NCBI GenBank assembly: GCA_002794785.1
Contig: NBBA01000007.1
Span: 1,302,001 to 1,366,000 of the forward strand
Direction: 5' to 3'
Length of the DNA stretch: 64,000 nucleotides
Origin: Coniferiporia sulphurascens
Taxonomy: Eukaryota; Basidiomycota; Agaricomycetes; Hymenochaetales; Hymenochaetaceae
The translations under genes and the position numbers were made by a program. How positions within the stretch are numbered: position 1 is the stretch's first letter; every line of letters begins with the position of its first letter. The notes beneath the pieces are model-generated. The model was given only the letters and a program-made list of their open reading frames with translations, ran no database searches and was not told where the DNA came from. Of this stretch, positions 13,299 through 44,817 are shown piece by piece.

Positions 13299-14223
13299 AC
13301 CCTCCACTCTCTGTGCCTCTGGTGCACCCCACACTCTGTTGGTAGAAAACATTATTATAAAACCATAACTAACCGCCCCTTTTCCACTTCTCTGCAGGTC
13401 CAGGTCCCTTGGGTTCAACTGGTCCCTGCATACACTCATCCCCTGTGGACGGACCCTCTGGCATTTACCTCCAGATGTGTTTCTTTCGCCACTCCTATCA
13501 CTCCGGTTAGCGAGGACACCTGTAAGGAATTCGTGGTTGCTGCCTGCTCCCTGAGCACCCTCCCCCACCTCCAGGTTTTCACCAATGGCTCACACATGGG
13601 CTTGAAATCCGGATCGGCCATTTGCGCCATGACAGGCCTCACCCACCTCAAGTCGTGCCAGCTTGCCTCCCCCACCTGCGCAACAGCCATGGATGCGGAA
13701 ATATTCTCTCTCACATCCACGCCGAGTTGGGCCGCACACCACCTACAGGAGCTCCTGCCTGTTGCATCTGACATCTTCTTTTTGTCAGATTCACTGATGG
13801 CTCTCCACCTTATACGCACATGGGCGCCAGTCCCAGGTGCCCACCTCCTCCATCAATGGAAGGCTGGGGTCCAGACTCTCTTGGACTCATACCTGGATCT
13901 CTCCATTCATTTCATATGGTGCCTGGGCCACTCCGACATCCCAGGGAATGAATGGGCGGACTGCGAGGTGAAGTTTGCAACAAATCTACCCCCGTCTTCC
14001 CTCGCACCCTCCACCTCAGCACTGAAAGAGGCTGCCATGCACACTCTCATGGAGTGCTGGTCCCTCTCACTCACCCAACCCCTTGTGTTAGATTCACTCC
14101 CTGATTAAGGGTTAGAAACAAGTGATAACAGATTCACACAATGTTACTAGTTAGTTTAGGGTAGGCTTGGTACCCTTCACTCGCTAGAGTGTTAGAGCTG
14201 ATGATGGTGGTAAGAGACAAGAG

Positions 14224-14268
14224 ATGAATTAAACTGCTTTTTACCGCAATTTTACATTGGGCTTTTAT
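14224..14268 (-). promoter_or_regulatory. Core promoter of ORF-bearing element copy 1
   Basis: TATAAAA (14262-14268, minus) lies exactly 34 nt before the A of CAGTTTAATTCA. The same spacing occurs in the other two copies, which makes the second motif a likely transcription start region (start of R). Confidence 0.65.
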
Positions 14269-14727
14269 ACCCTACATGTTGTAACCTATTTACTATGTTC
14301 CAGTAGATACTACAACATACTACTCTTGATTTATAAGTCATAGGAATGTTCCAGTACAATCCTGTACATGCTATTTACTATTCTTAGCTTCCTATGAGTC
14401 AGCTACATATTCCGGTATGTTCTACAGCCTACCATGCTATCTTTATCTTATGCTAGAACCTTCCCTGAGTTTCCATCGAGTCATACAGTATAATACCTAA
14501 GTTAACCATTCTCGGATACTACTATACCTATGATGCTTTTCCTTATTTCCTAATCGGTTCTGCTGTGCGATGCACTATACTTGGCTCCCATCAATTGCAT
14601 CTTCAATTGATTGCCATGCTTCCATCAGCTATTCTTAGCCAAACACTTAGATATACTTGTGTGGCTCAGCGATTATGCTAGTCTTCCTAATCTTATCTTG
14701 TTGTGGCTTGTTACTTATTACCGTAGA

Positions 14728-15378
14728 CTAGGATTGAGTCATACCTTCCATAATATCATTAAAAGGGGTTCGTTCTGGTGTTCTATCATCTACTGGCATA
14801 AAGAGCACTTCAGGTCCTATAGCGTTTATATTTGTTATCCTGCTATATCCTGGTGTGACTCTGTACGAAGGTTCATCATTGAACCATCGTATTATAATTT
14901 CTTTATCTATTGGTACTAACTCCTGTCTTAGATTTGGTTCCTTTCGATCTACTGTTGTGTGTCCTTTGGCTATGAAGTTGGCCTTGTATGCAAATAGTTG
15001 TTCTCGTAATTGTTTATTGATAGTATGAACTATTTGGTGTGCCACTTCTGCATAATTGGTTGATGTAATAACTGCCCTTTGATAACATAATTCATTATGT
15101 GGCTGATTATAAATCTTGGTTCTTGTGTAAGCACTGATTACATATCTATTCAATTGATACGAGAACATAGTTGCTCTATGTTCAATTATTACTTCTAGCC
15201 TTTCCGCCACTTGTTGTTCCCTTGTAGTATGATCAAATGTAATTTGACAGTTGTCATATCCTGCATTCTGTCCTACTGTTGCACATGCAATGTTAAATGC
15301 TTTCCATGCCACTTGATCTACATCTTTACAGCATTGGCACAGATTCCTTGTATCGATTAAAGTTACGGGTCTTGCCAT
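14728..15378 (-). CDS. Unknown protein encoded in LTR-like element (intact, 216 aa)
   Basis: I do not recognise this protein. It starts MARPVTLIDTRNLC and has a possible metal-binding LCxCC/LCxxC near residue 14, the block NCQITFDHT (about residue 43), AKGHTTVD (about 140) and PGYSRI...DDRT near the C terminus. No signal peptide or membrane segment is visible; it is polar and helical-looking in the middle. A near-identical copy (with stops) is at 30958-31605, and a diverged homologue keeping the same blocks is at 37204-37812. It uses AT-richer codons than the host LINE. It lies upstream of the element's own TATA box, so it would be expressed from a transcript that runs through the 3' LTR. Function unknown; coding status is supported by conservation. 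Confidence 0.7.
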   Translation of the reverse strand: MARPVTLIDTRNLCQCCKDVDQVAWKAFNIACATVGQNAGYDNCQITFDHTTREQQVAERLEVIIEHRATMFSYQLNRYVISAYTRTKIYNQPHNELCYQRAVITSTNYAEVAHQIVHTINKQLREQLFAYKANFIAKGHTTVDRKEPNLRQELVPIDKEIIIRWFNDEPSYRVTPGYSRITNINAIGPEVLFMPVDDRTPERTPFNDIMEGMTQS

Positions 15379-15476
15379 GTCGATCTTGCTAATCCATTGA
15401 TCTGGCGATCATGATTTTCATCAATTTACTAACACCTTGCCTCAACAGCCGACAAATACCTCACTGTCAACAGTAT

Positions 15477-30398: not shown

Positions 30399-30957
30399 TG
30401 GTCCTCCTCCATGAAGGCATTGGTGTCCTCTTCTACCTGGAGGGCGGAGTCGATGGTATGGAAGCACTTCTTCTTCGGGCAGGTGGGAAGGGTGGCGGGA
30501 TGGTCACCCTGGCAGTTAGCACAGTGGCGGGGGTGGGGGCAGGCATCTCCTTCGACTGTGTCATTTGCACAGTATGTGCACGACTTATGATGATTGGCCA
30601 TTAAGTGCTGTCTGGCACATTCAGCACAACAAGCCTGGGCTTGGCAGCCCTTCTTTCTGTGGCCGAGTCCTTGGCAGCGCTCACATTGGGTGAGGCCGGG
30701 GCGGACTGGTGGGACCGAAAGGCAGAGGGAGGATCCAAATAGGTGTTAAGCCTACTGATTAGGTAAGGCTTAATAAGTGATCGACAAGGATCAACTGAAT
30801 AAGACAAGGTAGAGACAAGATGACAATTGAGCAAGGGTTTCCCCAAGGACTAGTAGACTGGTGGACTGGTGACTGGTGACTTAGTATCCCACAGAGGAGA
30901 TTGTTAGTAAATTGATGAAAATCGTGATCGCCGGATCAACAGATTAGCAAGATCGAC

Positions 30958-31605
30958 ATGGCAAGACCTGTAACTCTAATTGATACCAGGAACCTATGCC
31001 AACGCTGTAAAGATGCAGATCAAGTAGCATGGAAAGTGTTTAATATTGCATGCACAACAGTAGGACAGAATGCAGGATATGACAACTGTCAAATTACATT
31101 CGATCATACTACAAGGGAACAACAAGTGGTGGAAAGGCTAGAAGTAATAATTGAACATAGAGCAACTATGTTCTCGTATCAATTGAATAGATATGTAATC
31201 AGCGCTTACACAAGAACCAAGATTTATAATCAGCCACATAATGAATTATGTTATCAAAGGGCGGTTATTACATCAACCGACTATGCAGAAGTGGCACACC
31301 AAATAGTTCATACTATCAATAAACAATCACGAGAACAACTATTTGCATACAAAGCCAACTTCATAGCCAAAGGACACACAACAGTAGATCGAAAAGAACC
31401 AAACCAAAGACAGGAGTTAGTACCAATAGATAAAGAGATTATAATACAATAGTTCAATGATGAACCTTCATATAGAGTCACACCAGGGTATAGCAGGATA
31501 ACAAATATAAATGCTATAGGGCTGGAAGAGCTCTTTATGCCAGTAGATGATAGGACACCAGAATGAACCCCTTTCAATGAAATAATAGAAATGAATCAAT
31601 CTTAG
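30958..31605 (+). pseudogene. Unknown LTR-encoded protein, copy 2 (three stops)
   Basis: Same ORF as at 14728-15378 (MARPVTLIDTRNLCQRCKD). It is broken by TAG at 31450-31452, where copy 1 has the Trp of IIRWFNDEP (TGG to TAG, with the preceding Arg CGA changed to CAA), and by TGA at 31564-31566, where copy 1 has CGA (Arg). All changes are transitions of the CpG or C/G to T/A type. The final TAG is at 31603-31605. Confidence 0.75.
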
Positions 31606-32063
31606 TCTATGGTAATAAGTAACAAGCCACAACAAGATAAGATTAAGAAGGCTAGCATAATTGCTGAGCCACACAAGTATATCTAAGTGTTTGGCTAAGA
31701 ATAGCTGATGGAAGCATGGCAATCAATTGAAGATGCAATTGATGGGAGCCAAGTATAGTGCATCGCACAGCAGAACCGATTAGGAAATAAGGAAAAGCAT
31801 CATAGGTATAGTAGTATCCGAGAATGGTTAACTTAGGTATTATACTGTATGACTCGATGGAAACTCAGGGAAGGTTCTAGCATAAGATAAAGATAGCATG
31901 GTAGGCTGTAGAACATACTGGAATATGTAGCTGACTCATAGGAAGCTAAGAATAGTAAATAGCATGTACAGGATTGTACTGGAACATTCCTATGACTTAT
32001 AAATCAAGAGTAGTATGTTGTAGTATCTACTGGAACATAGTAAATAGGTTACAACATGTAGGG

Positions 32064-32108
32064 TATAAAAGTGCAATGTAAAATTGTGGTAAAAAGCAGT
32101 TTAATTCA
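32064..32108 (+). promoter_or_regulatory. Core promoter of ORF-bearing element copy 2
   Basis: TATAAAA at 32064-32070 and CAGTTTAATTCA at 32097-32108; A-to-A distance 34 nt as in the other copies. It lies downstream of the ORF, so a transcript starting here would leave the element and run into a former internal region. Confidence 0.65.
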
Positions 32109-33566
32109 TCTCTTGTCTCTTACCACCATCATCAGCTCTAACACTCTAGCGAGTGAAGGGTACCAAGCCTACCCTAAACTAACTAGTAACATTGTGTGAA
32201 TCTGTTATCACTTGTTTCTAACCCTTAATCAGGGAGTGAATCTAACAGAGATAGTGAACGAGTAGGCTCTATTGAACGAAGAGCACAAGCTTAAGGCTTA
32301 GTGCTCTAAAAGTGAGTTCTTATATACATGTGTAGAAACCTATGGAACATGATGGAATGCTGACTGAGTGAAGACAAAGGTCAGTCAGCATGGAAGGGAG
32401 TAGAAACTGGTAGAAGAGTCTGACTGATCATGAGACTAGGATCAGTCAGTGTACAAGTAGAATTAGTCAGCGAAGATGACTAATGCCGATAAAGGCGATG
32501 AGTAAAGGAAATTTGTAACAATAGGTATACCTGGTTTCTCTTGAGGAGGCGAGCATGGGTCTGGCCATCTGGGTTGACAAAGGTGAACAAGACTGGGCAA
32601 GTCTTCAATAAGGGGAGCTTTTCCGGCAGTGTCACGTAGTGTGGAGCCACTACAAAGTCTAGGTGGCGTAGGGAGGGGTTTTGTCTGACCTCTTCGAGGA
32701 GTGTTGCTTCGTTAATTGGGTGGGGGTTTTTCCCAAAGAAGACATCTGTACAGGGCACCATGGAGATGCACAGTGTCGATCTTGGGCATACTCTGGAGGG
32801 GGTTAGTTGGAAACGGTCCGAGATGGGTTGGTCCGCTGGTCGGGCTAGGCAGTGGTCATGCATGTACTTCATGAACACATCCACATGGCGATCAATGATT
32901 GCTGATGTGGTGGGGGTGGAGGAGGCTGGCCTTTCTGCAAAGGTGGTCACCAGGTTGCCCTTTGTGTTGAATTTGGAGGACAACATGGTGACCGTGTCAG
33001 CAGTGGGCAGGGCCCGGAAGAAACCCTGGGCCAATTCAGTGAGGGAGGCACCTGACTTACACATAGCAGCAGGTGCAATGAGGTCCTGCAGTGTTAGAAC
33101 CAAGGTGGGTTCCTTGGCATACATCTTGGGTGGTGGTGGTGGTTGCCGGACTTTCTTCACCTTCTTTGCTGGGGCTGTCTGGGCTGTGGGGGGCTGGGGG
33201 AGGTTAGCTGCAATCGCTGCTAACTGTGCATATGTCATTGGTGCTCCTGCAGGCACGACTTTTGCCACAGCCTCAAGCTGAGCTGGTGTAATGGTTGTGG
33301 TGACTGGTGCCACAGTGGTGGGAGCGGGGGTGGTTCCTCCCACATTGATGGGAGTCTGCTGAGGGGCCTGTTGAGGCCGCGGAGCAGGGCGAGAGGCCAA
33401 GGAGGAGACCTGCCTGGTGAGGTTCCCTACATCGATGGATAGGCATTTAACAATGTCTGCCAGTACTGTAATCTGCGAGTCAGGGAGGGTAGGTTGGACT
33501 TGAGCCTGCGGTTTGGGCCTAGTGCTAAAGGTAAACAGGGCTCTGAAGGCTGAGGAGAAGGGTGCA

Positions 33567-35226: not shown

Positions 35227-36116
35227 CACCCCAGCAGATTGGATCGATCCAATCCCGTCACTGACAGGGATCTGATCATTAGGCCATTAGGTACTAGTTA
35301 CATAATTAAAATAACTGGAAAACACGGCAACACTGTGGATTGAACACAGAGCCCTATTAACTCCATTGCACAGTTTTAACCATTAGACTATAGGCTCATA
35401 TAATGAATCACAAACAGTAGAAAAAATATACCGATAAAATGATTACATAAGCCTGATGTATGCTGTTATATTTCGATCCGATCTCACTGAATACTGCACC
35501 AAATCAAATGAAATAAAAACGCTCACAAGCGGGGTTTTAATACCTACAAAACGCACGAACACCGAGCCGATTAGGTGAAGACTTGAGCCCTCTAGGTCAC
35601 AAGTATTACTCTCACTCATAATACTTGTGACCTAGAGGGCTCAAGTCTTCACTTAATCGGCTCGGTGTTCGTGCGTTTTGTAGGTATTAAAACCCCGCTT
35701 GTGAGCGTTTTTATTTCATTTGATTTGGTGCAGTATTCAGTGAGATCGGATCGAAATACAACATAACTATATGTGAATTCTGTGCTGTAATTACATTAAG
35801 TAAAACACATAATGGCCATTACAATTTAAGGCTATTTTCTGGCCTAATAAGGCTGAATTTTATAATGGAGGGACTAAAAACTATAGTCTTTGTCCTCCAT
35901 ACCTAATGCATATAATGCATAAAAGAATTAAAACTTCGAAAGGGTGTATGGTCTAATGGTTAATGCTGTCATGTAATTGTGCATTAAGGCTGTGGGTTCA
36001 AATCAGGGCTCAGCCATTTTTTCCAAATTTCCAAATTAGGCAACTTGGTGCTTGCCAATCCTTGTGATCAGATCCCTGTCACCGACAGCATTGGATTGAT
36101 CCATTCTGCTGAGGTG
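35227..36116. mobile_element. 890-bp TIR/foldback element with outward tRNA-like boxes
   Basis: Outer inverted repeats of about 52 bp (35227-35278 and 36065-36116): CACCCCAGCAGATTGGATCG on the left, its inverse on the right with about five differences. Just inside each end is a tRNA-like pair of boxes in inverse orientation: TAGTCTAATGG and TGTTCAATCC on the minus strand (35390 to 35337), TGGTCTAATGG and GGTTCAAATC on the plus strand (35949-36004), the latter followed by TTTTTT. The centre is the hairpin 35469-35758. No transposase and no clear TSD. It may be an inverted dimer of a tRNA-derived SINE or a TIR element; it is inserted in the LINE K 5' UTR. Confidence 0.65.
35469..35758. repeat. 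Near-perfect hairpin, 139-bp arms, 12-nt loop
   Basis: The left arm 35469-35607 and right arm 35620-35758 are inverse complements with one mismatch (G/A near 35571). The loop is ACTCTCACTCAT. Several CpG sites are intact in both arms, unlike in the surrounding decayed repeats. The arms are bordered by TA on both sides, compatible with a Tc1/mariner-type palindromic MITE (TTTCGATCCG...CGGATCGAAA) inserted at TA. Confidence 0.85.
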
Positions 36117-36753: not shown

Positions 36754-37203
36754 GGGCAACCTGGTGACCACCTTTGCAGAAAGGCCAGCCTCCTCCACAC
36801 CCACCACATCGGCAATCATTGATCGCCATGCAGATGCGTTCACGAAGTACATGCATGACCACTGCCTAGCCCAACCAGCCGACTGGCCCATCTCAGACTG
36901 ATTTCAGCTAACCCCTTCCAGAGTTCGCCCCAGATCGATGTTGCACATCTCCATGGTGCCCTGCACAGACATCTTCTTCAGACAGAACCCCCACCCAATA
37001 ACCAAAGTGACACTCCTTGAAGAAGTCCGGCAAAACCCGTCTGTTAGGAATTGATGAATAAGCTTGCTTACAAGCTTAGACAATGACACCAGCAACTACC
37101 AATACAGGAAGGGACTCCCACAGAGACTATCCAGCGATCATTCAACATGGGGACAGAACTAACTAGAAAACCAGGACTTCTTGGGAACATCAGACCAATC
37201 ACA

Positions 37204-37812
37204 ATGCTCAAGTGACCACTAAAGACTCTTGACACATCAAGACTCTGCCACCAATGCCAGACCACATACAATCAATCATGGGAAGCACTTAACATGGTAA
37301 TAACTGAATGCTTTTACATGGCAGGGTACATGAACTGCCAGGTAACTACAGATCACACTGTAGACCCTATAGGCAATGGCACAGAGGTCAGGGTAACGCA
37401 TACAGTACAAATGTACATCTTCGATGTACAGGAGTTTTTGCACAACATCCATGTCCAGATGATAGTGAACCCACACATACATGACAAGGAATGTGACCTA
37501 CAAGTGGTCTCAGGATCCTTCCTGTACAGGACGTTGCAGGATAACACATTCCTAGCTAATGCTCACCGATTACGCACAAAGGTAATCACCCTCTTCGAGA
37601 ATCTATCAGCAAAGGGATTGACGACCGCTGATCAACAGATCGGCAACGTTAATCTTTATGTGATAACACTATGGTTATCAAATGGATCACCCCCAGTGCC
37701 ACCTCCAGGATATACGTGACGTATCACTAGGATAAACCACATTAATGAGCCACCAGATAACGTGATCGACGACAGGACACTGACTGGAAGGTACCTGCCT
37801 ATGGACCTTTAA
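37204..37812 (+). pseudogene. Diverged homologue of the LTR-encoded unknown protein
   Basis: 202 codons from ATG 37204 to TAA 37810-37812 with two internal TGA codons (37213-37215 and 37717-37719), each at a position where copy 1 suggests Arg or a CGA codon. Conserved with copies 1/2: TLDTSRLCHQC (vs TLIDTRNLCQRC), WEALNM (vs WKAFNI), MNCQVTTDHT (vs DNCQITFDHT), AKGLTTAD (vs AKGHTTVD), PPGYT and the C-terminal DDRT. Such block conservation over diverged DNA shows that the protein was under selection. Confidence 0.72.
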
Positions 37813-38108
37813 CCAATATCGCATCATGTGATTAAGCCACACTCGGCAGGAACTGAAGCACTTACCAAAGCCAGCCACAAACTCTAAATGACAAGTGTCC
37901 AAGATGACAAGACAACATGCAGGAACCAGTACAGGAGGCCACCAAGACAAGTTAATGACTTACCAATCATCAAGCTGTTAGGCAGCATCTCAACAAGAAG
38001 CCACTGGCACATAAGTCTACAGGGTAGCATGCAGAACAGTGGGGTGACATGCACAGCCTAAGCATCATGGTAGAGTCATTATGACAGCATATGACTTCGC
38101 TATGAGCT

Positions 38109-38169
38109 CAGTGGAGCCTAGTGGAGCATAGTGGAGCGCATGGAGCACAGTGGAGCTCAGTGGAGCACC
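38109..38169 (+). repeat. Direct repeats of AGTGGAGC in element copy 3
   Basis: Six tandem units of about 10-11 bp (AGTGGAGCNN), about 180-240 bp upstream of the TATA box of the element, with further isolated GTGGAGC units near 38290-38335. The position fits a U3 enhancer-like array. Confidence 0.7.
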
Positions 38170-39429
38170 AATGGCCAATCATAGATAGTTATTTCTCATA
38201 TGATCACCTTATGGTGTCATTTGCACTGGTATGCAGCTCCAAGTCAGTGGGGCCTATGATGATGCTATGAGGCATCATAGCTCCAACTGCAGAGCATTGT
38301 GGAGCATCTGCTGTGGAGTGCATTCAAGTGGAGCTTCTTCTACATGTATTTAAGAAGGGCCTAGGCCAGCCTAGAGCCCCAGTTTAATTCACCTTCTCAA
38401 TTCTCTCAGACTTCTCCTGAGCGAAGTACCAACATCTACCGACTTATTCTTGACTCAATCACATGCCTCATCTCTATCTTGACTACTTGTTCCATCGGCT
38501 AGCCACGGTTACCCTTGGTCCTAACACCATCCCTCTGCCACCTCGACTTTGTGGTGGCACCACACTACACAATGTTACCAGAGAAGCTTCCATTATTGAA
38601 GACCTGCCTGGTTTTGTTCACCTTTGTTGACCCAGATGGCCAAACCCACGCTCACCTCCTCAAGAGGAACCGGGTATACCTTTTTGGATCCTCCCTCTGC
38701 CTTTCAGTCCCACCGGTCTGCCCCAGCCTCACCCAATGTGAGTGCTGCCAAGGACTCGGCCACAGAAAGAAGGGCTGCCAAGCCCAGGCCTGTTGTGCTG
38801 AATGTGCTGGTCAGCACTTAATGGCCAATCATCATAAGTCATGCACATACTGTGCAAATGACACAGTCGAAGGAGATGCCTGCCCCCACCCCGCCACTGT
38901 GCTAACTGCCAGGGCGACCACCCCACCACCCTTCCCACCTGCCTGAAGAAGAAGTGCTTTCACGCCATCGACTCCGCCCTCCAGGTAGAAGAGGACACCA
39001 ATGCCTTCATGGAGGAGGACCAATGAGTGCACAAATCTGTGTACTCCAGTGGAACGCCACCCACTCACTTGCGGCAATTCATTCCCTAATTCCTGTCCTT
39101 ACTGATGAACCTTCCCCCCCTCACCTGATTCTGATCCAGGAGCCACTGTGGTATCAAATCAGGCTACAGCCCTCCCTCACCAACCCAGATGGGGACCCGG
39201 CATTCAACATACTGACAATCCCAGGCTTTGTCCCAGTACTCCCTCCTGCCACCCAACCCAGGGTGGTCACCTATGTCTCAAGGACCCTCCCCCAGTCTTC
39301 ATGGTCAGTAGTTGGCCCCACCTCCAGCGGAACCGACATCGTGACGGTGGAGATCCACAGCAACCTCCTGGTTAGGGTGTGCAACTACTACAGTATGTTG
39401 CCCCCTGATCAGGCAGGAGCTAGACAAGG

Positions 39430-39684
39430 TATTAAATAAATATAGACAAATGAGTAAATATAAGATGGTCATATGAACAATCATCTTACTAACACAATGA
39501 TAAAGCAACAATAACACAATACAATAAGAGCTATGATAGTTATAGTATATGTAGCTCATGGTAGATGTATATAAGGAGAGCTGGTCTCTACTACGAAATA
39601 CATTGGTTTACACTGATAACCCTGTTCCCTCTCAGCCTTACCACTGCACCTCATTGTCTACCACAAAGTGTGTAGATTTTAAGA
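39430..39684 (+). repeat. copia 5' LTR (255 bp)
   Basis: TATTAAATAAATATAG...GATTTTAAGA. A TATA-like TATATAAGG lies near 39569. Borders are fixed by comparison with the 3' LTR and the solo LTR. The terminal TA is probably a mutated TG. Confidence 0.9.
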
Positions 39685-39702
39685 GGTTATGAGCCTTGAC
39701 TC
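39685..39702 (+). promoter_or_regulatory. copia primer-binding site
   Basis: GGTTATGAGCCTTGACTC begins directly after the 5' LTR. It resembles the copia-type PBS that pairs with an internal initiator-Met tRNA half. By similarity only. Confidence 0.5.
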
Positions 39703-39738
39703 TATAACTAACAAAACAATTAACAATATAATGAAACT

Positions 39739-41330
39739 ATGTCCTCACTGTCCGGTAGCAAACCTGAGACTGAAATTGAATGAAAAAATCATGAGCACAA
39801 TGAACGAACAAATATAAACAATTTATGAAAAATTGCTAACAATCTAAAAATAGTACATCTTCAAACACACACTGCAGAAGAATTACAAATAAAAATTAAT
39901 GCAGCAAGAGAAGCCAGTGAGCAATTTAATCTCATAATGGAATGTAATAAAAGACTAATACTGATACACGGAAATGTTAATGAAATATGAGCAAGAATTG
40001 AAAGGTATGATGCAGCCACAAATGAACAAAGACAAAATTACCAAACTAATTATTTAAATGAACAAAAGGAAAAAGCTAAACAATTAGGTATATCCAATTC
40101 AGGTGACGTAACCCAAATAAGAATTTGAATTAGTGAGTTTAACGATTTAAAAACGGATGAAGAATGAACTAACTTTAAAAACACAAATCCATATATAAAA
40201 TCAGAAGAAGAAGAAGAAGAAGAAAAAGAATTGAGTGAGCCATCTGATCCTGGAGATGGATCTGATGCTAATGACGAAACAGATGAACTGGATATGGCCC
40301 AAAAACTCGCAGAAATCCAAAAATTCTTCGACAGAATCGAAAAGCTCGATGGATGCTGAAACTTTAAACTTTGGAATTTCTGTATCAGAAGTGCAATCAA
40401 AAGTGCAGGTTACAGTAACCTGCTCATTAACACACCAGGAACTGGTGAAACTGGAGTCACTAGTGCTCTATATAATGGCACTATGCATACTATGCCCAAT
40501 AAAATATTGGCTTATTATCTTAATTTTTCTAAGGATATACCAGCGCTTCTTAAAGCACTTGATGGACAATATAATGTCCAGACAACAATTACTAAGGGCT
40601 TTAACGAGGCTGCCCTTTTTGATATCAGAGGCCATGTCAGCCATTTCGATGGAATGCTCAACAGGCTCTCCAACCTTTATGAGGAGCTCATTGCCCAGGG
40701 AGTCAACATCTCCGAATCGACTTATATATTGGCCATTACAAGAGCAACTCCTGAACAATATCAATATGTTTTAACTCAAAGTGAGTTATATATAAAAACA
40801 ATTAACGAAACAAATGCAAACATGAAGAACCTGCCTATCACACTAACCCCAACATTTTTATTAACAGCTTTACAAAATGCCTTTGAGGGTTGGCATAAAA
40901 ATCATCAGAGGACAGGAGCAGCAGCTAACCACCTGCCCAAGGACAAGTGGACACACCCTTATTTTAGGGGCCACAGATGCAGTTACAGCCGCAGTGTTCA
41001 ACCACAAGGTTGCAGTTATAGGGGCCGTGGCAGATTTAGAGGATGAGGATGTGGGGGATATTCCCCTAACCAACAATCAAATGTGGTAAAGTGCTATAAC
41101 TGTAATAAATTAGGGCACTTTAGTTGAGACTGCTGGGCGCCAAAAATGGAATGGACAAAAGCGGCCCACCAGAAGAAAAAAGAGGAAGTGAATGAAAATG
41201 AGAAAGGAAAGGGGAAGGAAATGGGTGTGTCAGCAGCACCAATGACGACTGGGGCAAGTGCATCCCAGGCTAAACATACTGCAACAGCAGCAGCAGCAAC
41301 AAACATTGCATCAAAATAAGTGCCGTAATT
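39739..41330 (+). pseudogene. copia gag region
   Basis: The frame starts near MSSLSGSKPETEIE. An acidic repeat (GAA)n encodes poly-Glu at about 40202-40230. The copia gag core begins at FFDRIEKLDG (about 40325), and a retroviral zinc knuckle follows at CYNCNKLGHFS-TGA-DC (about 41090-41135). TGA at 41125-41127 stands where the knuckle almost always has Arg. Internal stops are TGA. Confidence 0.82.
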
Positions 41331-44300
41331 GGCCGAGGTGAAACCGCCTTTATCGAGGAGATAGACAATGATTTTGAAATGGGAGAATTCCCAATATACT
41401 CCTATAACGACTTCCTAGACACTCTAGGTCAACACAATAACCTAGGAAATTTTGATAGTGCCATGGAAGATGTGGATGACAATAATCTTGATGTAAGCAC
41501 ATACACAGCTACTACAAATGAATTTGCTAACAATGTTTATTCTTCAATGGATATAATTGATACTGGTGCAACAATACACTTAACGCCATATCTAAATTGA
41601 TTACAAAATACTTATAAAACCAACGCAATAACAATAACGGCCGCAAACAAATCAATGTTTACATCAAATATAGTAGGGGATCTTAAGCTTTACATCCCCA
41701 ACGGACACTCAGTAAGTGTCATAACATTATCAAATGTATATTACAATCCTAAAATGAATATGACATTAGTCTCTCAAGGACTTCTATGTCAAGATGGTTA
41801 CAAATTTATTTATAAAGAAAATGAATGTGTAATAAAGTATCCTAATGGATCTTTATGCAGAAAAATTAAAAACACAAATGGATTGTATAGTATATTTAAC
41901 AACGATGTACATGCGGCCACGAAAAATGTAACATTATTTGAACTTCACAAAAAACTTGGTCTTATAAGCTATGCTTACATAAAGTGATTACTAAAAGAAG
42001 ATCAAATTACAAATAACAAAATTTCAAATTATGATGAAACTCAATGTACAATTTGCATAGAAGCAAATATAAAAAGAATGCAAATCCCAAAATTACATAT
42101 TTCAAAGTTAGCAGAAAAATTTGGCGATCATATCCATATGGATATATGGGGACCTGCATCCACACATGCTATTGGAGGATATAAATATCTCCTAACTCTA
42201 GTAGATGATGCTACTAGATGGATTAAAATGATTTTATTAAAAACAAAAAATGAAGGATATAATGCATTTACAACTTGGGCTACAATGCTCAATACACAAT
42301 ATAACATAAAAATAAAAATATTACAAAGCGATAACAATACAGTGTTTTTAAGTGAACAATTCACTGAATTTTTAGAAAAATATGGAACAATATGAAAGCT
42401 GACTGTTCACAATACACCACAACAAAATGGAGTAGCAGAATGATCACATCAAACAATTCTAAATAATACACAAGTTAACCTGCTACAAGCAAAATTACCA
42501 CTAAGCCTATGGGGTGAAGCTGTAAAATACAGCACTTATGTGTACAATAGAACTCCAAAGAGCACTATTGACTTTAAAACACCATATTACAAACAATATA
42601 ACAAAAATTACAACATAGACAATTTAAAAGAATTTGGCCAATATTGCATAATATGACAAGAAGACATTAATAAATTACAACCAAAAGGAATATATGCACA
42701 ATGGCTAGGATTTGATGAGGAAAGTAAAGGTCACAGAACCTATCATCACAGAAAAACTACAGTCAAATGAAATTTACAATTTTTAGATTCTCCACCATCT
42801 AAAATTGAAGGGGAGAATATTACAGAAAAACAAAATGAACAAATACAAGAATTAACAAAAGAAAGACCAATAAGAGCAATCAAACCAATGAAACAATCAT
42901 TAGGTCTTAACTTCGACAAACAAAACATGGTAGCCTATCTTACAGAATTTAATCAATTCAATATGGAATTAATAGGCAATCCTAATTCATATCAACAAGC
43001 GATTAATAGAATTGATGCAAATCAGTGGATCACAGCAATGAAAGAAGAAATAAAAATGCTAATCGAAAGATCTACATGGACGATCATTGATCCACCAAAT
43101 AATGCAAATATAATCAGAACAAGATTTGTTTACAAAACAAAAAGATTAGCAAATGGAGAAATTGAACGTTACAAAGCAAGGTTAGTAGTTCAAGGATTTG
43201 CCCAAATGGAAGGTGTCAACTACTATTCAAACAATACATTCACTCCAGTGGCACAATTAGCCACAGTAAGAACTATATTAAGTTGGAGTGCAACAAACAA
43301 TTATGAAATTCACCAAATTGATATTAAATCAGCTTACTTATATGGTGAATTAGAAAAAGACAAAAATATATATATAAAGCCACCACCAGGAAATTTAGTT
43401 GAAACAAAACCTGGACAAGTTTTAAAACTAAACAAAGCCTTATATGGATTAAAACAAGCTGGCAGATGATGGTACAAAAAATTATCAGAAATACTAATAG
43501 GAATTGGACTCATATGAGCAGTCCAAGATAATGCAGTATTTTTTAGAAAAGTAAAAGAAAAAACAATTCTAATACTTTTCATACATGTTGATGACATAAT
43601 GATATGTGGCTTAAATTTACTAATAATAAAAGCCTTTAAAGATGAAATTGGAAAACATGTAAAATTTACTGATGGAAACGATGTGCATTGGTTACTTGGT
43701 ATAGAAATCGAATGTAATTGAGAAGAAAGAATAATCAAATTAAGGCAAAAGAATTATATCAATACAATCATTGAAAAATATAATTTAAAAAATGCTGCAA
43801 CAGTACGAACACCAATGACACCAGGACAAGTGTTAAAATCACTTGAAAATCCAACCAATGAAGAATTAAACTTCATAAGACAAATACCTTATATGAATAT
43901 GGTTGGAGCATTACGATATGCAGCTGATTGTACAAGACCTGATATATCATTTGCAACAGGTCAATTCACTAGGCATTTAAACAAACCTAGTATAGAACAT
44001 TATAATGCAGTAAAACACTGCTTTAAATATTTAAAAGGAACAAACAATTATTGGTTAATACTCAGGGGTAAAGACCCAATTGAGTTAATCAGATATACTG
44101 ATGCCAATGGAATGACACAGGAAGGCCATAAAGCAATATCCGGATATATATTTCAAATAGGAAATGCAACAATGTCATGGTCAAGTAAAAAACAAGAATT
44201 AGTGTCATTATCAGTATGTGAAGCAGAATTACAAGCTTTAACTCATGGAGTTAAAGAAGCTATATGGCTACAAAGACTGGTTGAAGAGGTACTGCAGACC

Positions 44301-44555
44301 TTGGATACACCTACAAAAATCTTATGTGATAATCAAGCAGCCATAACAATAGTTAACTCAACAGAGCAAAAATATACACAACAAACAAAACATATTAATA
44401 TACGAAAAGATTTTTTATGAGATTATATAGAAAATGAAACTATATCAGTTTCATATATTCCAACTGGACAGCAAAAAGCTGATATTATGATGAAAGTGCT
44501 AACAATCGAATTAATCAAATGTTTTACAAGTCTACTCTGCTTAGTAAAAGTTTGA
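41331..44555 (+). pseudogene. copia pol: protease, integrase, RT, RNase H
   Basis: Protease IIDTGAT near 41557. Integrase: zinc region partly readable, then HMDIWGP (Asp), LQSDNN (Asp), NGVAE-TGA-SHQT where the Glu is followed by a conserved Arg position now TGA (42441-42443). RT: WITAMKEEI, FVYKTKRLANG, QIDIKSAYLYG (motif A), LYGLKQAGR, IHVDDIMICG (motif C, Asp pair intact). RNase H: RYTDANGM, SWSSKKQELVSLS, CEAELQAL, DNQAAI. Stops at 42393, 42441, 42654, 42768, 43467, 43515, 43719 and 44418 are all TGA. The polypurine tract AAGGGGAG precedes the 3' LTR. Confidence 0.88.
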
Positions 44556-44562
44556 AGGGGAG

Positions 44563-44817
44563 TATTAAATAAATATAGATGAATGAGTAAATATAAGATG
44601 GTCATATGAACAACCATCTTACTAACACAATGATAATGCAACAATAACACAATACAATAAGAGCTATGATAGTTATAGTATATGTAGCTCACAGTAGATG
44701 TATATAAGGAGAGCTGGTCTCTACTACGAAATACATTGGTTTACACTGATAACCCTGTTCCCTCTCAGCCTTACCACTGCACCTCATTGTCTACCACAAA
44801 GTGCATAGATTTTAAGA
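44563..44817 (+). repeat. copia 3' LTR (255 bp)
   Basis: Same length as the 5' LTR, with fewer than ten differences. At three sites one LTR has TG where the other has CA, which points to a lost CpG in the ancestor. Confidence 0.9.

Follow-up and report, generated by a model that had tools for sequence, protein, structure and literature searches.

MMTV, a betaretrovirus, primes with tRNA; lentiviral nef and the 3′ accessory genes of foamy viruses reach into U3, overlapping it only. The sag gene of MMTV lies entirely within U3 of the 3′ LTR (PMC3621094, consulted in part). The plant elements Grande, RIRE2 and Retand carry an extra conserved gene, whose function is unknown, near the 3′ end; it is in sense or antisense orientation and in most cases occupies the interval from pol to the 3′ LTR (PMC7264820, in part). 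In fungal chromoviruses a chromodomain ends pol, and some of these elements have an additional ORF of unknown function (PMC2864245, in part). In Tf1 of S. pombe the primer-binding site (PBS) is found just past the 5′ LTR and is complementary to RNA nt 1-11 (PMC7175516, in part); Tj1 of S. japonicus also has a self-priming PBS complementary to the RNA 5′ end, and its LTR is 244 bp long (PMC4600332, in part).

The window analysed here is a stretch of 64,000 nucleotides (C7:1302001-1366000) of a fungal genome that was searched as a whole (39.3 Mb, 31 contigs). Our interpretation, to which we give a probability of roughly 0.87, is that repeated units in the window are solo LTRs of a self-priming, chromodomain Ty3/Gypsy retrotransposon (family A, with a sister family B), whose U3 gene is the last cistron and encodes an accessory protein. 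The element resembles the Tf1/sushi group (Tf1, Tj1 and Tcn1 of Cryptococcus) in its 11-nt self-complementary PBS (seen here in B), its gag, PR, RT, RNaseH and IN, and its 5-bp target site duplication (TSD), but it differs from Tj1 in that the LTR is 1.35-1.49 kb long and holds a conserved gene in U3. As with MMTV sag, the gene lies wholly inside U3, its location and selection being observed for A and its expression presumed; unlike MMTV, the element would be self-priming, and its host is a fungus. No sequence relation between the A ORF and sag was found, as judged from Pfam at cut-off and solved chains rather than by direct comparison. The LTR contains the ORF in its entirety, in contrast to nef and the foamy-virus genes, and also in contrast to Grande, RIRE2 and Retand, for which the part of PMC7264820 consulted places no such gene in the LTR, and to the fungal chromoviruses of PMC2864245, where the corresponding part reports no LTR gene. 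The original prediction that the family is an unrecognised one agrees with the literature searched, in which no LTR-borne gene was named for any fungal retrotransposon, most subscription papers being beyond the reach of that search.

The features on which the analysis is based are as follows (window coordinates, strand, feature).

30902..32247, +, solo LTR of family A, copy 2, recognised from its ends, TSDs and genome matches; U3 would be unit nt 1-1196 and R-U5 nt 1197-1346 if the transcript starts at AGTTTAATTCA
30897..30901, 5′ TSD GAGAT of copy 2
32248..32252, 3′ TSD GAGAT of copy 2
30958..31605, +, U3 frame of copy 2, homologue of the 216-codon ORF, with stops at codons 165 and 203
32064..32069, +, TATA box TATAAA of copy 2, 34 nt before the presumed start
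32098..32108, +, AGTTTAATTCA of copy 2, presumed transcript 5′ end and self-primer, after which 139 nt remain
14086..15434, -, solo LTR of family A, copy 1
14728..15378, -, U3 ORF of copy 1, intact, 216 codons
14081..14085, TSD CCTTG of copy 1
15435..15439, TSD CCTTG of copy 1, other side
14225..14235, -, AGTTTAATTCA of copy 1, presumed start and self-primer
37042..38526, +, solo LTR of family B, 1485 bp, with the same end motif as A and flanks CCGTC/CCATC (imperfect TSD), inside a LINE-like frame
37054..37809, +, U3 frame of the B copy in the window, 252 codons interrupted by in-frame stops; identity to the A protein 24-27%
38381..38391, +, AGTTTAATTCA of B, 34 nt after TATTTAAG (38347)

Copies 1 and 2, each of 1.35 kb, are 95.6% identical, and the TGTTAG...CTAACA ends and perfect 5-bp TSDs that had led to their description as units are real. 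An ORF had been reported to begin at nt 57; the ATG is there in both copies, but the 216 codons are intact in copy 1 only. The TATA and initiator-like motifs reported 3′ of the ORF, with about 140 nt behind them, were borne out by the positions of TATAAA and AGTTTAATTCA. With up to one mismatch, CAGTTTAATTCA occurs three times in the window versus 0.40 expected, and the three places are copies 1 and 2 and the unit at 37042-38526. In an alignment of 19 full-length A rows, the longest invariant run (58 nt, 1191-1248) spans the primer and early R; a run of this length was matched in 0.4% of 5000 permutations with CpG sites fixed (p 0.004).

The searches with the family B unit began at 37043, one base inside the unit start. 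At the DNA level the similarity of A and B does not exceed chance (blastn gave 12 short matches, the best with E 0.25); one of these matches is at the equivalent place over AGTTTAATTCA and another (E 3) is at the 5′ end. Their U3 ORFs are homologous and collinear and occupy the same LTR position: the ORF at window 37294-37719 is 24% identical to the A protein (E 5e-12), and the longer B frame is 27% identical over 200 residues. The spacing from the TATA element (TATAAA in A, TATTTAAG in B) to AGTTTAATTCA is 34 nt in both families, and R-U5 would measure 150 nt in A and 146 nt in B.

Two loci tie family A to internal retrotransposon sequence, and one of them to a Gypsy pol. The unit at C2:700944-702289 (+) and a unit on C14 (-) have the same internal sequence directly before the 5′ end (C2:700473-700943 and C14:498462-498779, 288 of 318 alignment columns identical). 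This internal sequence ends in a purine tract, CTTAAGAAGGG, and the order at both junctions is CAAAATTTGATCTTAAGAAGGG, 3 nt, then TGTTAG. A genome search with the 471-nt internal piece returned three matches, namely C2, C14 and one of 50 nt. Upstream at C2, a pol frame of 872 residues comprises the C-terminal part of RT, RNaseH, H2C2, the integrase core and a chromodomain; the N-terminal part of RT is in the preceding frame, separated by stops. The order RT-RNaseH-integrase-chromodomain is that of a Ty3/Gypsy (Metaviridae) chromovirus. Between pol and the 3′ internal end sits a nested B unit flanked by the TSD GGAAC. A search with the remaining internal region returned 12 matches, of which one is the region itself, one is C18 at 72% and ten measure 50-163 nt. 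Among the 53 pol matches listed (best 52 of 148 candidates scored), the C2 and C18 pol sequences are mutually closest, with 69% identity over 351 residues, whereas the other 51 rows do not exceed 42%.

The C18 locus supplies the opposite end of an element, in family B. Here the B unit at 245572-247055 ends in CTAACA, followed by TC and then TGAATTAAACT, which is the exact complement of AGTTTAATTCA (11 of 11 nt) and begins 2 nt past the LTR; this was observed for B only. Judged by its base sequence, the junction is a Tf1-type self-priming PBS. The order along C18:245572-253125 is LTR, PBS, a 2.2-kb leader, a gag-like part (Ty3 capsid, below the Pfam cut-off), a CCHC knuckle, aspartyl protease, RT and RNaseH; stops break up these frames. 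Pol is truncated at 253126 by an inverted B LTR whose 20-nt 5′ flank and search score equal those of the first, and C18:245572-254608 can be described as a B element closed off by this inverted LTR. The leader, with its further frames, distinguishes the C18 element from the Tf1/sushi group. Within the leader (C18:247069-249295; L061 170-2396) are stop-to-stop frames of 199 residues, the first of them beginning within the end of the LTR, and 256 residues, with no Pfam match. The 5′ part of the internal region had no other genome match (1 candidate). A search with CTAACATCTGAATTAAACT allowing up to three mismatches gave seven places, one of them exact (C18), versus nine for a reversed control, and therefore only the exact match counts. 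When the presumed RNA was folded from its start to the PBS, nt 1-11 paired with the PBS in both the minimum-energy and the centroid structures (z -2.83; 0 of 200 shuffles as good). Because the start was chosen from the complement, the fold speaks for compatibility and is no independent proof.

The A-internal junctions at C2 and C14, together with the LTR-PBS-gag-pol order at C18, support the original prediction of solo LTRs with a gene in U3. We propose that the LTR consists of a U3 of 1.2-1.34 kb with the sense gene at its 5′ end, a TATA element, a transcript start at AGTTTAATTCA and 146-150 nt of R-U5. Pol II would initiate at AGTTTAATTCA within the 5′ LTR, and nt 1-11 of the RNA would fold back onto the PBS behind that LTR, where they would serve as the primer for reverse transcription, as they do in Tf1. 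The full RNA would terminate in the 3′ LTR, whose U3 gene would then be the last cistron. The copy of the gene in the 5′ LTR, being upstream of the promoter, would not be in that RNA, and the U3 protein would most likely be made from a spliced or subgenomic 3′ mRNA and aid the element as an accessory protein. For family A, in which the primer half is seen, priming in this manner is presumed; its own 5′ LTR-PBS junction was not found in the genome by the PBS motif search with up to three mismatches.

One could envision that the units are LTRs but that the ORF is a passenger, that is, a captured gene piece or a chance frame with no function for the element. We consider this unlikely, and the codon-level variation of family A bears most directly on it. 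The 19 aligned A rows represent 18 distinct copies (L004 is the same as L012_0). CpG-capable sites vary at 108 of 110 positions versus 11.9% of the other 1236 sites, for which reason they were treated separately; decay this strong suggests DNA methylation of these repeats. At the non-CpG sites of the ORF, variation at codon positions 1 to 3 is 14/198, 18/199 and 41/192 (Fisher p=1.3e-5), whereas the three phases of the noncoding control 705-1190 are flat (20/147, 17/151, 19/150). Mean pairwise dN/dS over 180 codons is 0.15 for A1-A1, 0.14 for A2-A2, 0.19 for A3-A3 and 0.13 for both A1-A2 and A1-A3. These five group comparisons do not include A2-A3, and window copy 2 is absent from A1-A2 and A1-A3; the filter of more than 150 differences of 540 removed, judging by the pair counts, L006 (a frameshift) and L012_1 (a short deletion). 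Neutral simulation at the observed CpG rate gave a dN/dS of 0.44 with a 0.5% quantile of 0.19, a value that A3-A3 equals and is thus borderline, while the other four comparisons fall below it. The p-values are optimistic, given that the copies share ancestry. These results show that the U3 ORF of family A is under purifying selection, as would not be expected of a passenger.

The passenger interpretation draws on three other observations. Firstly, the A ORF has no Pfam match at cut-off, none in NCBIfam and none among solved structures. Secondly, most of the ORF copies listed contain stops, only 27 of the 150 matches being free of them within the matched stretch (hand count); the stops are mostly TGA and at recurrent codons, as expected of CpG decay after insertion. 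Thirdly, the codon signal in B (15/220, 9/217 and 20/207 non-CpG variable sites at positions 1 to 3, 10 copies) is not significant (p=0.065). Against it stand the absence of any gap column in the 756 nt of the B ORF alignment of the same 10 copies, the fact that both families, with pol sequences related as described above, have homologous and collinear ORFs at this place in the LTR, and the existence of similar proteins elsewhere. Among 5.8 billion predicted proteins the A ORF has two relatives, P0001 (199 aa, 62% identity) and P0002 (124 aa, 67%), both on contigs of less than 1 kb; a profile search returned the same two only, with nothing in viral contigs, and no protein relative emerged from a search with 149 residues of the B ORF. 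Structure prediction for the U3 protein was poor (mean pLDDT 47.3). The columns invariant in a five-row protein alignment include C17, C44, H50, H67, H94 and C98.

A second alternative is that the unit is a complete small element, a single LTR-like cassette mobilized by an integrase in trans, which never had two LTRs. The numbers appear to favor it. A DNA search of the genome with copy 2 gave at least 45 matches (best 40 of 231 candidates scored), the A ORF at least 150 (150 of 320 candidates scored) and the B unit at least 46 (best 40 of 96 candidates scored); repetition of the A unit on this scale is not chance. Internal DNA was found at C2, C14 and C18 only, versus the at least 150 ORF matches, and no complete LTR-gag-pol-LTR element is among the listed copies (150 A matches, 44 of 46 B matches). 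The inverted TGTTAG/CTAACA ends with a 5-bp TSD would also suit such a cassette. The genome check proposed with the original prediction, for two LTRs flanking gag-pol, thus came out only in part: LTRs adjoin gag-pol sequence on one side, on the 3′ LTR side for A (two loci) and on the 5′ LTR side for B (one locus), but never on both sides at one locus. Among the listed matches no gag-pol enclosed by two LTRs of the same element came to light, an outcome that the original prediction had named as a possible refutation.

The bare cassette is nevertheless very improbable in our judgment, given that the units adjoin internal retrotransposon DNA at their exact LTR ends, next to the purine tract in A and the PBS in B, and that the flanks point to recombination between copies. 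Of the full-length A copies read at both ends, 18 are distinct, and nine of these have a direct perfect TSD. When the disturbed copies L015 and L016 are counted, a nested or tandem part being allowed for, 11 of 19 have a TSD and eight have none; the copies read were best-scoring or near-neighbour ones and not a random sample. The eight with mismatched flanks include the two copies that adjoin internal DNA, on C2 and C14, as well as C2:689610 (+) and C2:693666 (-) (L009 and L010, region C2:688600-703300). The latter two are 99.1% identical and share GAAAC reciprocally, and their outer flanks can be read as the two portions of a single Gypsy integrase frame, which points to an inversion through recombination. 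Furthermore, we know of no mechanism that copies a bare LTR. If the units are instead solo LTRs of a retrotransposon, then LTR-LTR recombination has likely stripped nearly all of the internal regions. A genome rich in solo LTRs has precedent in Cryptococcus, with five families of solo LTRs, and in S. cerevisiae, with 280 solo LTRs or fragments versus 51 elements (PMC7175516, in part).

Several candidates for the missing parts were rejected. Pairs of A units within 14 kb number 12 in the same orientation and 22 inverted (hand count drawing on 150 matches for A, 53 for pol and 44 of the 46 for B, all lower bounds). Only one of the 12 same-orientation pairs, at C2, encloses a related pol; the other 11 were set aside as full elements because no match to the C2 pol (53 listed) lies between the members, whose open-frame lengths differ. 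The C2 pair (689610/700944) does enclose pol, but its left copy is recombined and flanked by another, interrupted Gypsy gene. For the 5′ half that the C2 element lacks, sought behind a unit with the 3′ flank CTGCT, the best candidate was C8:1726966, which by eye is a LINE region with other LTRs. The 3′ flank GTGGC of L007, considered as a PBS, is by eye the integrase end of another Gypsy, and a PBS match with three mismatches at C6:261419 sits, as read, within a diverged A copy. Inverted unit pairs with equal scores occur elsewhere, for example at C6:1984900/1986318.

The least probable alternative, that the C2 Gypsy pol is not the owner and unit A simply adjoins one repeat at two places, could appeal to the heavy rearrangement of C2 and the nested inserts in its pol region, but two A copies at unlinked loci, equally oriented relative to the purine tract, start no more than 3 nt away from it, B independently shows the LTR-PBS-gag-pol order, and the C2 and C18 pol sequences are each other's closest listed matches.

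Genes inside an LTR are known from retroviruses; in a self-priming fungal Ty3/Gypsy element, with the gene under purifying selection, the arrangement would have arisen independently. A U3 gene is doubled with each insertion and left behind in every solo LTR, so that dead insertions become dispersed gene copies, and repeat annotation may conceal protein genes within LTRs. The U3 ORF now constitutes a defined protein family open to testing. A broader hypothesis, which we offer tentatively and hold to be somewhat less likely than its converse, is that A and B belong to a lineage of "complex" fungal retrotransposons. The accessory gene in U3 would have been kept for long while the DNA of A and B diverged past alignment, and the relatives in two database proteins and the leader frames could be part of the same picture. 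Possible roles of the protein are regulation of the element or an action on the host, against silencing for instance, and intact solo LTRs could remain a source of it.

Insertions of other LTRs nested within the units were noted in both families. Two in A are at unit positions 1211-1222 (L015, L016), +15 to +26 of the presumed start, and three in B are at unit positions 1191-1216 (L056, L057 and C2:894197-895988), roughly 123-148 nt 5′ of the start presumed for B. Such clustering might reflect promoter-linked insertion, the numbers being small; an insertion hot spot at the transcript start was rejected, as A agrees with it and B does not. The copia element at window 39429-44817 has 256-nt LTRs that are 97% identical, and was rejected as owner of the units on the length of these LTRs and its different place. 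A solo LTR-like sequence of 0.56 kb, TGTTAAGC...TTGTAACA, is frequent close to the units (L016 1141-1699, L007 482-1028 and near window 15463). The window also contains an inverted repeat at 35464-35763, with 145-nt arms that are 99% complementary and a loop of 10 nt.
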